Below the pieces are notes generated by a model. The model saw only the letters and a program-made list of their open reading frames with translations, did no database searches and was not told the DNA's origin. The translations under genes and the position numbers were made by a program. From Actinomycetota bacterium (GTDB lineage: Bacteria; Actinomycetota; Acidimicrobiia; IMCC26256; JAENVU01), in contig VGBT01000021.1 of the NCBI GenBank assembly GCA_016870395.1, forward strand, positions 1 to 40,062: 40,062 nt of DNA. Direction: 5' to 3'. Positions 6,431 through 27,274 of this stretch are shown piece after piece (the first letter of the stretch is position 1; the number at the start of each line of letters is the position of its first letter).

Positions 6431-6697
6431 TCAGGAGGCTCGGCGGCGCTGGCGGATCAGGCGGCGGCGCTCGCGCTCGGTGAGCCCACCCCAGACCCCG
6501 TGCTTCTCCCGGACGGCGAGCGCGTGCTCCAGGCAGGCCTTCCGGACCGGGCAGAGCGCGCAGATGGCCTTCGCCTCGGTCGAGTCGTCATCCTCCTCGG
6601 AGGGATGGAACACCTCCGGGTCGACGCCCTTACAGCGGGCGTGCTGCCGCCATGCGGGCGGGGGTACGACTTGTGTCATCGCAATCATGGTCTGCAT
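6431..6697 (-). CDS. WhiB-family iron-sulfur transcriptional regulator
   Basis: An 88-residue Wbl protein. Four cysteines bind a [4Fe-4S] cluster: C22 (ARCKG), C46 and C49 (ICALC) and C55 (KAC). The conserved turn HGVWGGLTERERRRL follows, and a basic tail (RQRRRAS) ends it. These proteins bind the primary sigma factor region 4 at selected promoters and respond to redox or NO. The subgroup (WhiB1, 2 or 4) is not clear; it lacks the AT-hook seen in the second WhiB of this window. Start at ATG 6697 is supported by AGGGAG 11 bases upstream; in-frame ATGs at 6688 and 6679 are alternatives. Downstream is the inverted repeat at 6370. Confidence 0.9.
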   Translation of the reverse strand: MQTMIAMTQVVPPPAWRQHARCKGVDPEVFHPSEEDDDSTEAKAICALCPVRKACLEHALAVREKHGVWGGLTERERRRLIRQRRRAS

Positions 6698-6922: not shown

Positions 6923-7438
6923 ATGAGCACCGTCGACGGCCGGGCCGTCCGGCACGGCGCCCTGTGGGGTCTCGTCGTGATCGCGCTCCTCAGCGTCCTG
7001 CGCGCAGTCGTCGACCGCACCGTGCAGGACTTCGACGGCTCGATCTGGTCGCTGCTCTATGTCATCGGGATCTGGCTGGCCTTCGTCCTCGCGGGACTCA
7101 CCGCTGGGCGTCGAGCCCCCGACACGCCGCTCTCGAACGGGATCGTCGCGGGGATGGTCGCGTACCTCCTTTGGGTCCCGGTCCGGGCAGTGATCGAGCT
7201 CGTGCGCGACCAGCCCGGTGGGCTCTTCAGCGGGCAGGACGCGCCGTACACGCCCGGTCGGGCCTTCGGCGCGCTCGTGCTCGCCGCGGTGTTCGGTCTC
7301 CTGGGGGGTCTGATCGGCGCGAGAATGGGCGGTGGTGGTGAGTCGGCCGGGTGGCCGCGTGCGGGCGACGCCTCCCTTCCGGGAGGCCGAGACCCGTCCG
7401 AGGAACGTCCGGACTCCACAGGGCACGGTGCTGGGTAA
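6923..7438 (+). CDS. Four-helix membrane protein whose end overlaps rnpB
   Basis: 171 residues with about four hydrophobic segments: near 14-30 (LWGLVVIALLSVL), 45-63 (LLYVIGIWLAFVLAGL), 72-90 (NGIVAGMVAYLLWVPV) and 114-132 (ALVLAAVFGLLGGLIG). No family recognised. After the last helix the frame continues through a Gly/Arg/Pro-rich tail into the 5' third of the RNase P RNA and stops with TAA at 7436-7438, about 105 bases inside rnpB. The tail composition is dictated by rnpB, so the functional protein probably ends its fold around residue 135. No convincing ribosome binding site precedes ATG 6923. Confidence 0.7.
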   Translation: MSTVDGRAVRHGALWGLVVIALLSVLRAVVDRTVQDFDGSIWSLLYVIGIWLAFVLAGLTAGRRAPDTPLSNGIVAGMVAYLLWVPVRAVIELVRDQPGGLFSGQDAPYTPGRAFGALVLAAVFGLLGGLIGARMGGGGESAGWPRAGDASLPGGRDPSEERPDSTGHGAG

Positions 7439-7739
7439 CACCCAGTCGGGGCGACCCGCAGGAAAGTGCAACAGAGAGCAGACCGCCGATGGCGGGCCGC
7501 GAGGTCCGCACAGGCAAGGGTGCAACGGTGCGGTAAGAGCGCACCAGCGCCCGGGGTGACCCGGGCGGCTCGGTAAACCCCACCGGGAGCAAGGCCAGAC
7601 AGGGAGTGAGCGGCCCGCTCGACACTCCCGGGTAGGCCGCAGGAGCCGGCGGGCAACCGTCGGCCGAGATGGATGGCTACCCAGGGCGGTTCCGCGGAAC
7701 CGCCTGGACAGAATCCGGCGTACAGGCCGACTCACCACC
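7334..7739 (+). ncRNA. rnpB: RNase P RNA, bacterial type A
   Basis: Catalytic RNA of RNase P, which trims tRNA 5' leaders. The 5' and 3' ends pair as helix P1: 15 perfect base pairs between 7334-7348 (GGTGGTGAGTCGGCC) and 7725-7739. Conserved regions are readable in order: GAGGAACGTCCGGACTCC at about 7398-7415, GCAGGAAAGTGCAACAGAGA near 7460, the L15 loop GGTAA near 7532 that binds the tRNA CCA end, and the 3' signature ACAGAATCCGGCGTACAGGCC just before P1. The roughly 400-base length fits the type A RNA. The 5' end may be a few bases earlier. The upstream membrane-protein reading frame runs into it. Confidence 0.96.
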
Positions 7740-25375: not shown

Positions 25376-25419
25376 GCGCCCGGATCGAAAATCGTAGACG
25401 ACGTCCGCCGACAACGGGT

Positions 25420-25491
25420 GGGCGCTGAGGGACTCGAACCCCCGACCACCGCCTTGTAAGGGCGGCGCTCTTCCAGCTGAGCTAAGCGCCC
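25420..25491 (-). tRNA. tRNA-Val, anticodon UAC
   Basis: 72 bases on the minus strand fold into a complete cloverleaf. The acceptor is GGGCGCT/AGCGCCC (7 perfect pairs), the D arm GCTC...GAGC, the anticodon stem CCGCC/GGCGG with loop CTTACAA (anticodon TAC, reading GUA), and the T arm GGGGG-TTCGAGT-CCCTC. The 3' CCA is not encoded. A TAGCCT hexamer 12 bases upstream (25509-25504, minus strand) may be its -10 element. Confidence 0.97.
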
Positions 25492-25538: not shown

Positions 25539-25594
25539 CCGAAACTGTCGCGTGTATCTCACGCTCTGGCGTGAGGAAGACGCGACAGCTTCGG
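25539..25594. repeat. 56-bp nested palindrome upstream of tRNA-Val
   Basis: The outer arms CCGAAACTGTCGCGT (25539-25553) and ACGCGACAGCTTCGG (25580-25594) pair at 14 of 15 positions. The inner arms CTCACGC (25558-25564) and GCGTGAG (25569-25575) pair perfectly around TCTG, with GTAT and GAAG as a symmetric internal loop. No T-run follows on either strand. It lies 136 bases beyond the whiB7 stop and 48 bases upstream of the tRNA. Possible roles are a Rho-aided stop for whiB7, a REP-like element or a protein site. The rest of 25492-25729 shows no gene. Confidence 0.75.
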
Positions 25595-25729: not shown

Positions 25730-26074
25730 TCACGCCGTCTGGCGCTGCTCCAGCACGTCTTGCACCCGGATCACGGGTGAGAGCAGCAGCGGTGGGGCCA
25801 CCTTCGGTGGCCTCCCTCGCCTGCGCTTCTGGGCCAGGACCTTCCCGTTGGCAAACAGCTCCCCGCCCCACACGCCCCAGGGCTCGCGCCGCTCGAGCGC
25901 CGCGGTTAGGCACTGCTCCCGCACCTCGCAGCCACGACAGAACTGCTTGGCCCGGGCGATGTCGTCGAGCTGCTCGGAGAAGAACAGGTCGACGAGCGCC
26001 GCCGAGCCGTCGCGGCAGCGCGCGGCGTCCCGCCACTCCTCGGTCTCGGTCATCTCGAAGGTCAGTGCGAACAT
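25730..26074 (-). CDS. whiB7: WhiB7-class regulator (redox-sensing, AT-hook)
   Basis: 114 residues. Cluster cysteines are C20, C46, C49 and C55. The segment ERREPWGVWGGELF (61-74) is followed by KRRRGRPPK (83-91), an RGRPxK AT-hook. The combination EPWGVWGGE plus AT-hook is what separates WhiB7 from other Wbl proteins; in Mycobacterium and Streptomyces WhiB7 binds the primary sigma factor and AT-rich DNA next to the -35 to induce intrinsic antibiotic resistance. Beyond the hook there is an unusual 23-residue extension (VAPPLLLSPVIRVQDVLEQR). AAGGGG lies 8 bases before ATG 26074. The long leader upstream carries a small ORF and a hairpin, as in known whiB7 genes. Confidence 0.88.
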   Translation of the reverse strand: MFALTFEMTETEEWRDAARCRDGSAALVDLFFSEQLDDIARAKQFCRGCEVREQCLTAALERREPWGVWGGELFANGKVLAQKRRRGRPPKVAPPLLLSPVIRVQDVLEQRQTA

Positions 26075-26120
26075 GGCGTTTGCCCCTTTTCGTTGGTTGG
26101 ACGGCCCCGGAAACGCAGAG

Positions 26121-26146
26121 AGGCCGCCGGGTTGCCCCGGCGGCCT
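26121..26146 (-). terminator. Leader hairpin before whiB7, possible attenuator
   Basis: Perfect 11-bp stem AGGCCGCCGGG (26121-26131) / CCCGGCGGCCT (26136-26146) with a 4-base loop. On the minus strand it begins 25 bases after the upstream-ORF stop (26172) and ends 46 bases before the whiB7 start. The tail TCTCTGCGTTTCC is only weakly T-rich. In characterised whiB7 leaders an intrinsic terminator after the upstream ORF is bypassed when translation is inhibited; the same role is inferred here. Confidence 0.6.
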
Positions 26147-26171
26147 GGTGAGACTTGCGGTAGCGGGCTCG

Positions 26172-26342
26172 CTACGGCGAGATCAGCAGGTGCCGGGGCA
26201 CGGACTTCGGGTCGGTGTTCACGCCGAAGACGTAGGGCGTGATCGACCACGAAGCGGGGGCCGGCATGGCGCACGCGCCGAGAATCCGCGCGCGGGCAAC
26301 GCCGGCTGCGACCACGAGGTGGTGCTGCGTCAGGCGATGCAT
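26172..26342 (-). CDS. 56-codon upstream ORF in the whiB7 leader
   Basis: ATG 26342 is preceded by GAGAGGA with a spacing of about 10 bases, a good ribosome binding site. The frame ends in TAG at 26174-26172. About nine in ten codons end in G or C, the same bias as the neighbouring genes, which a chance frame need not show. The predicted peptide begins MHRLTQHHLVVAAGVARARI and ends PKSVPRHLLISP; it is basic with a mildly hydrophobic centre and no recognised domain. Known whiB7 upstream ORFs are usually shorter. It could be a leader peptide sensing translation, an independent small protein, or both. No similar peptide is known to me. Confidence 0.6.
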   Translation of the reverse strand: MHRLTQHHLVVAAGVARARILGACAMPAPASWSITPYVFGVNTDPKSVPRHLLISP

Positions 26343-26436
26343 CGCTACGGGTTCCTCTCGACGTTCAGGTGCGTTCAGATCGGTGGTTCGGCTAGTTGCG
26401 GTCTTGCGGTGGCGCTGCGAGCCACGACCAGGCAAC

Positions 26437-26469
26437 CAGACCGGGGCCGAGGGCGTCAACCGATTTTAT
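26437..26469 (-). promoter_or_regulatory. WhiB7-type promoter for the whiB7 leader
   Basis: On the minus strand an AT-rich block ATAAAAT (26469-26463) is followed after three bases by TTGACG (26459-26454), a good -35. WhiB7-dependent promoters are defined by an AT-rich patch a few bases upstream of the -35, where the AT-hook binds. The -10 is poor: TTGCCT, about 18 bases downstream. The promoter overlaps the last codons and stop of the inositol-phosphatase gene ending at 26456. It would give a leader of roughly 350 bases. Confidence 0.55.
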
Positions 26470-27274
26470 CGGCACCGGGCCCCGAACCTGGAGATCCGAC
26501 GACGATCCCGAGGATCCGGGCGTGGACTGCAGGTGCCCCCACCACGATGTCACCCGAACCCAGCCAGCGGTCGGGGTCGCCCGCCCAGTCGGTGACCACC
26601 CCGCCGGCCTCCCGGACGAGCAGCGCCCCGGCGGCGACGTCCCAGGGCCCGAGGGCCAGCTCGAAGTACCCGTCGAAGACGCCGGCCGCGGTCCAGGCCA
26701 GGTCGAGGCTCGCGGCGCCTGCCCGGCGCAAGTCCTCGAACGCCCCGAACGCGGCGGCGAAGCGAGCGAGGTAGTCGTCGACCAGGTCCTTGCGCCGGAA
26801 CGGGAAGCCCGTCGCCACGATCGCCTGCGCCGGCGGCCGGGCGCTCACCGCCAATCGCCGCCCGTTGCACCACGCCCCATCGCCCGCGGCGGCGCGATAG
26901 GTGTCGCCGAGCAGCGGCGCGTGCACGACCCCCACCACGGGGACGCCGTCGGCCACGAGCGCGACCGACACGCCGACGGCCGGAAAGCGGTGCAGGAAGT
27001 TCGCGGTCCCGTCGAGCGGGTCGCAGATCCACCCGAACTCGGCGCGCTCGCCACCACCCTCCTCGCCGAAGAACGGGATCCCAGGGGCGCTCCACGCGAG
27101 CGCGGAGCGCACGGCCTCCTCGCTCGCGTGGTCGACGTCGCTGACCCAGTCGCCGGGCGCCTTCTCCCGCACGTTGCTCGGGTGGTCGAAGCCTGCCGCG
27201 ACGATCGCTCCACCTGCGCGCGCGGCCGCCTCGGCTGCGTCCGTCAGCGCAACGAGATCGAGTCGCTCGCTCAC
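26456..27274 (-). CDS. Inositol monophosphatase family protein (paralogue 1)
   Basis: 272 residues. Metal-dependent phosphatase of the IMPase/FBPase/CysQ superfamily. The metal ligands are in FGEEGGG (Glu), CDPLDGTANFLHRFP (two Asp) and PWDVAAGALLVREAGG (Asp, C-terminal motif). Substrates may be inositol phosphate, histidinol phosphate, fructose bisphosphate or phosphoadenosine compounds; none can be chosen from sequence. It starts at GTG 27274, ten bases after a second family member, so a tandem duplication or paired function is suggested. Its 3' end overlaps the whiB7 promoter. Confidence 0.9.
   Translation of the reverse strand: MSERLDLVALTDAAEAAARAGGAIVAAGFDHPSNVREKAPGDWVSDVDHASEEAVRSALAWSAPGIPFFGEEGGGERAEFGWICDPLDGTANFLHRFPAVGVSVALVADGVPVVGVVHAPLLGDTYRAAAGDGAWCNGRRLAVSARPPAQAIVATGFPFRRKDLVDDYLARFAAAFGAFEDLRRAGAASLDLAWTAAGVFDGYFELALGPWDVAAGALLVREAGGVVTDWAGDPDRWLGSGDIVVGAPAVHARILGIVVGSPGSGPGADKIG

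Follow-up and report, generated by a model that had tools for sequence, protein, structure and literature searches.

Does the small Wbl gene on the minus strand of this stretch of DNA (the window, 40,062 nucleotides from an actinobacterium of the class Acidimicrobiia) encode WhiB7, and is it switched on and off in the way known for that regulator? WhiB7 is a master switch for actinobacterial resistance to ribosome-blocking antibiotics, and in Mycobacterium and Streptomyces its control involves an upstream open reading frame (uORF) and a terminator (PMC11550727, PMC9618640, PMC4128351, PMC3905903, PMC7157823). The window locus, gene and leader together, spans 26470 to 25730 on the minus strand, and we consider it very probable that it is a whiB7/wblC orthologue under the two-layer control known from these two genera. 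The features on which this reading is based are collected in Table 1.

The protein has the Wbl fold (Pfam Whib, 62.5 bits, 5.7e-17). The alignment places its four Fe-S cysteines at residues 20, 46, 49 and 55, followed by EPWGVWGGE at 64-72, which holds both the EPW triplet and the G[VI]WGG motif, and then by the AT-hook RGRPPK and a tail of 23 residues ending in -TA. The Pfam AT_hook model scores it at 10.3, under the cut-off of 17.4, and a search of NCBIfam gave no model match. The best PDB match is M. tuberculosis WhiB7 with 71.6 bits, the next family being WhiB with 35.8 bits. In the reverse search, with the M. tuberculosis WhiB7 sequence (which agrees with PDB 7kif over residues 25-90) as query, the window gene came first at 71.3 bits, ahead of another Wbl of its genome at 39.8 bits, so the two are reciprocal best hits. 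In a maximum-likelihood tree with named WhiB7, WhiB, WhiB1, WhiB3 and WhiB4 proteins and five other Wbl proteins of the window genome, the protein lies inside the WhiB7 clade (support 100/99), which bears out the assignment made in the sequence-only reading, and the clade including it has a single origin in 100% of the bootstrap trees. Judged by these comparisons, the window gene is a true whiB7, an orthologue of whiB7/wblC (Wbl class V). Its closest named relative, at 83% identity, comes from an 'Acidimicrobiia bacterium' from Lake Baikal (L056), which bears out the class given in the sequence-only reading. Of 60 near genomes, about three quarters have a whiB7 orthologue.

The window genome (2.98 Mb, 98.9% complete) has seven Wbl genes, and a second one of them is found in the window (6458-6652, minus strand). 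Two or three whiB7 paralogues per genome were seen in L052 (G059) and G170, with about 1 kb between two of them, and in the L052 pair a typical terminator stands at only one of the two. The WhiB7 proteins of family f11 (L053-L055, small genomes) are very divergent, with about 44-50% identity, and are without the EPW triplet; their C-terminal alanine is kept, and so is the terminator hairpin in L053 and L054.

Table 1. Features of the whiB7 locus, in window coordinates.
Feature	Position	Strand	Evidence
whiB7 CDS, 114 aa	25730..26074	minus	Pfam Whib, PDB match, reciprocal best hit, tree
Shine-Dalgarno AAGGGG of whiB7	26083..26088	minus	sequence
Terminator hairpin AGGCCGCCGGG-GCAA-CCCGGCGGCCT, 11-bp GC, weak T-run after	26121..26146	minus	sequence, relatives
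Stop-codon hairpin GTAGCG-AGCC-CGCTAC around uORF stop TAG; predicted antiterminator tip	26160..26175	minus	fold, relatives
uORF, 56 codons, MHRLTQHHLVV...LLISP, stop TAG	26172..26342	minus	ORF, relatives, shuffles
Predicted antiterminator strand GCCCCGGC-A-CCT within uORF, pairs with terminator 5' arm	26188..26199	minus	duplex, arm-swap test
Shine-Dalgarno AGAGGA of uORF	26353..26358	minus	sequence
Predicted -10 TTGCCT, TGG before it	26430..26435	minus	TGgTTnnnT conserved in 74-promoter alignment
-35 TTGACG	26454..26459	minus	TTGAC in 74 promoter-scored leaders; unique with AT site
Predicted WhiB7 AT-hook site AAAAT, three bases (CGG) upstream of -35	26463..26467	minus	conservation, genome-unique motif

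The window leader holds a translatable uORF and after it a terminator. An AGGA lies 10 nt before the ATG of the uORF, and the stop codon is 25 nt before the terminator hairpin. This geometry is shared: a uORF preceded by a Shine-Dalgarno sequence and ending 20-32 nt before the hairpin was found in 59 of 97 orthologous leaders (mean 25.6 nt, sd 2.7), compared to 3.1% in shuffled sequence, while the remaining 38 have no uORF that passes the strict Shine-Dalgarno filter. The window hairpin has a weak T-run behind it (CTCTCTGCGTTT) and goes undetected in a generic terminator scan. Of 111 Acidimicrobiia-like leaders, 98 have a hairpin of its type, AGGCCG[CT]CGG..CCGGCGGCCT, a conservation beyond the needs of a mere terminator.

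A second partner for the 5' arm of the terminator is found inside the uORF, with a predicted duplex of -22.2 kcal/mol. Pairing of the arm with the uORF at -28 to -17 nt from the end of the stop codon was seen in 71% of the leaders and in 11% of shuffled ones, and own arms pair better than swapped arms, -22.2 as compared to -18.8 kcal/mol, with none of 5000 permutations as good. At one site of the arm, where C and T alternate, the arm/uORF pairs are 19 C-G, 11 T-A and 3 others; of the 13 readable cases with T instead of C in the arm, 11 have A instead of G in the uORF, and the 3' arm of the terminator keeps its G. Relatedness inflates these raw counts, and on the WhiB7 tree they therefore come down to four well-supported independent contrasts, of which about two agree, none oppose and two are unchanged, too few for significance. 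The window leader folds far better than its shuffles (z -4.8), and the form into which it folds is the antiterminator. Prediction and comparison thus both point to a competition between antiterminator and terminator. At the gathering score no Rfam family covers the leader, and within the window genome whiB7 is the one gene that a covariance model of the leader detects; the next independent match (E 0.04) sits in an apparently coding stretch, and was rejected as another gene sharing the attenuator.

The best local hairpin near the uORF stop contains the stop codon itself in 49 of the 59 leaders, and 64% are above the 95th percentile of shuffled sequence. The hairpin sequences differ by family (GTAGCG..CGCTAC, CGACGTAA..ACGTCG, CAGCTGATCAGCTG) and the pairing is kept. 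In the predicted antiterminator fold the hairpin forms the apical part, and it is the antiterminator strand and this hairpin, both absent from the sequence-only reading, that on the predicted folds make the leader a switch. A ribosome at the uORF stop would melt the hairpin; a role in pausing of the polymerase is also possible. The hairpin could even be mainly an RNA-polymerase pause hairpin, which keeps transcription in step with the first ribosome in the manner of the trp leader, the 25-nt gap then being the pause distance. Its position and the spacing of about 25 nt to the terminator, constant across the classes, agree with this, but the same data fit a role as antiterminator tip and the two roles are compatible, and that pausing is the main role seems to us rather unlikely. 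In the accessible part of the literature on whiB7 and wblC no earlier description of the stop-codon hairpin was found.

With the hairpin taken as the tip of the antiterminator, the switch could work as follows. Ribosomes running freely to the uORF stop would open the stop-codon hairpin and mask the antiterminator or pull it apart, and with the antiterminator blocked the terminator would form and whiB7 would be off. If a ribosome inhibitor or a lack of amino acids slows translation along the uORF, the antiterminator would form and RNA polymerase would read through into whiB7. WhiB7 would in turn bind AAAAT beside the -35 together with the primary sigma factor and boost its own promoter. We infer from this arrangement that the window leader would be induced by antibiotics.

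The uORF peptide is weakly conserved, and it is therefore probably translation as such that is sensed, and not one arrest peptide. The pooled pN/pS of the uORF is 0.79 over 20 pairs, which means that selection acts weakly on the coding sequence of the peptide, and the peptides of different families are unrelated although spacing and RNA pairing persist. Under the other explanation the uORF product would be one particular peptide that senses a drug or arrests the ribosome, as in the erm and TnaC leaders, and a stall, for instance around ACAMPA.SWS, would flip the switch. A profile of the uORF peptide does recover 29 leaders from the same taxonomic order at E<1e-4 (16 of them its seeds) and none on the reverse strand at this level, and between the window and its nearest relative pN/pS is 0.35. 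Such conservation of the peptide may however stem from the RNA structure, and with the pooled value as it is we do not favour a conserved arrest peptide, which appears improbable compared to general translation sensing.

That the leader begins far upstream, and not just before 26074, was part of the sequence-only reading and agrees with a conserved, predicted WhiB7-type promoter about 350 nt upstream; if transcription begins near 26424-26422, the leader is about 349 nt long. The promoter consists of AAAATCGGTTGACG, an 18-nt spacer and TTGCCT, and the TGA within its -35 doubles as the stop codon of the upstream gene, of the inositol-monophosphatase family. The consensus of 74 leaders, which were chosen by promoter score, is TAAATC..TTGAC, 17 nt, TGgTTnnnT. 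In Streptomyces and mycobacteria, WhiB7/WblC promoters are characterised by an AT site three bases upstream of the -35 (PMC7157823, PMC3905903), and here this site is present as a conserved sequence feature. The motif WAAWTNNNTTGAC has one occurrence in the 2.98-Mb genome and 0 in the control. A generic sigma-70 scan misses the window promoter because TTGCCT lacks the A at position two of TANNNT, and no canonical promoter was found by it at the locus. This A-less, weak -10 is itself conserved among the relatives, as would be expected for a promoter that depends on an activator, and we infer autoactivation of the window whiB7 with the primary sigma factor. An unseen proximal promoter driving whiB7, with the hairpin terminating only a short uORF transcript or the upstream phosphatase gene, would suit the lack of any canonical promoter in the generic scan, but is very improbable: most of the 74 leaders carry a WhiB7-type promoter at a position of about -340 to -550, the window promoter is unique in its genome, and in the comparison of own and swapped arms the antiterminator is coupled to the terminator arm.

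The preferred reading, an attenuator behind an autoactivated promoter, can be set against known systems with the help of over 100 relatives of the window locus. The AT-rich patch beside the -35, the leader with its uORF, the GC hairpin and the Wbl protein were all found in this order on the minus strand, as had been proposed, with support from shuffles and relatives, and the order of promoter, uORF and hairpin recurs in most of the relatives. Mycobacterium whiB7 (M. tuberculosis, M. marinum, M. bovis) belongs to the same protein clade, with EPW-GVWGG and the RGRP AT-hook, and is alike in its promoter AAAATCGGTTG, a start about 350 nt upstream, a uORF and then a Rho-independent terminator (PMC4128351, PMC3905903), but the terminator differs (GGCCACGG..CCGTGGCC) and the uORF peptide is unrelated to that of the window. 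The three Mycobacterium leaders have the promoter GAAATCGGTTG or GAAAATCGGTTG, the uORF and a terminator 3' arm that is echoed at the uORF end, and their spacing from uORF stop to terminator is the same as in the window lineage. In probable Streptomyces leaders, from actinomycete genomes of 7-10 Mb, the uORF stop precedes the terminator by 22-26 nt and, as in the window lineage, lies in a small hairpin, here CCTGAT..ATCAGG; unlike the window they have a uORF of about 90-110 codons and the terminator AGGGCCGCGGA..TCCGCGGCCCT. A uORF attenuator of Streptomyces wblC was reportedly the subject of work by Lee, Lee and Roe in 2022. Attenuators of the ilvB/trp type have the same leader ORF and competition of terminator and antiterminator, but the window uORF is without a recognised run of regulatory codons, and the window attenuator controls a transcription factor and not a biosynthetic operon. 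The switch logic is, by comparison of the leaders, common to the classes though uORF peptides and terminator sequences differ. The sequence-only reading stressed a non-mycobacterial lineage, but outside the mycobacteria the architecture was already known from Streptomyces wblC, for which two papers describe a terminator and an antiterminator under uORF control (PMC11550727, PMC9618640). What these sequences appear to give is the known whiB7/wblC attenuator, now extended to the class Acidimicrobiia with a fixed geometry; a search of the accessible literature for work linking Acidimicrobiia to whiB7 or to attenuation found nothing relevant.

The tail behind the AT-hook had been described as an unusual addition. 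It is real, but a peculiarity of the window protein it is not: Acidimicrobiia-like orthologues have a median of 23 residues after the hook (7-38), compared to 3-8 in the named Actinomycetia including Mycobacterium, and both sequence and length of the tail drift among WhiB7 proteins. The last residue is alanine in 115 of 121 WhiB7 proteins, 111 of which end in [SVTIA]A; for 412 long ORFs taken from these loci as background the share ending in alanine is 11%, and none of the five other readable Wbl proteins of the window genome has alanine at its end. WhiB1 of M. tuberculosis is a Clp substrate, degraded via its last residues (PMC3946367). The simplest reading is that the terminal alanine of WhiB7 is perhaps a Clp degron; a WhiB7-wide rule of this kind was not found described in the literature searched. 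We suggest, tentatively and as something short of probable, that WhiB7 in general combines a stop-codon hairpin placed at a constant distance (about 25 nt) from the terminator, with termination of uORF translation as the signal, and an alanine Clp degron for fast reset, both ancestral to Actinomycetia and Acidimicrobiia.

The strict WhiB7 promoter motif was not found before any other gene of the 2.98-Mb genome. Ten sites of the WhiB7 type have one mismatch, and the motif search gave no convincing regulon of resistance genes, the strict motif being unique to whiB7 and the relaxed matches unconvincing. One site with one mismatch (L188, G000:C49) lies in front of genes for a marR-like regulator and a transporter of the MFS type and overlaps a palindrome; it may mark a regulon member or be a plain MarR operator. 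The spaced pattern gave a second match, which has an SOS-like box in it and was set aside as a regulon member. At L190 (G000:C74:6637-6673) a promoter with CGAACGCCTGTTCG, an SOS/LexA-like box, precedes a putative DUF222/HNH (13E12-type) protein.

Downstream of whiB7 there is a near-perfect palindrome of roughly 50 bp (about 25541-25592), CTGTCGCGT.....TCACGC....GCGTGA..., which is an interspersed repeat, present at about 18-20 further sites of the genome, with 37 strand-wise matches (about 20 loci) and 0 in the reversed control, and looks like a REP-type element of the window genome. A tRNA-Val(TAC) also lies downstream of whiB7 (25417-25491, minus strand), and an RNase P RNA is found at 7339-7738 of the window, on the plus strand.

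The comparative set shows exactly which bases to mutate, and defines a fixed geometry, for work in a laboratory host, and the alanine rule offers a simple test of how WhiB7 is switched off. The presence of what appears to be a complete switch in a mostly uncultured environmental class also implies that inducible responses to ribosome inhibitors are probably older than the split between Acidimicrobiia and Actinomycetia.
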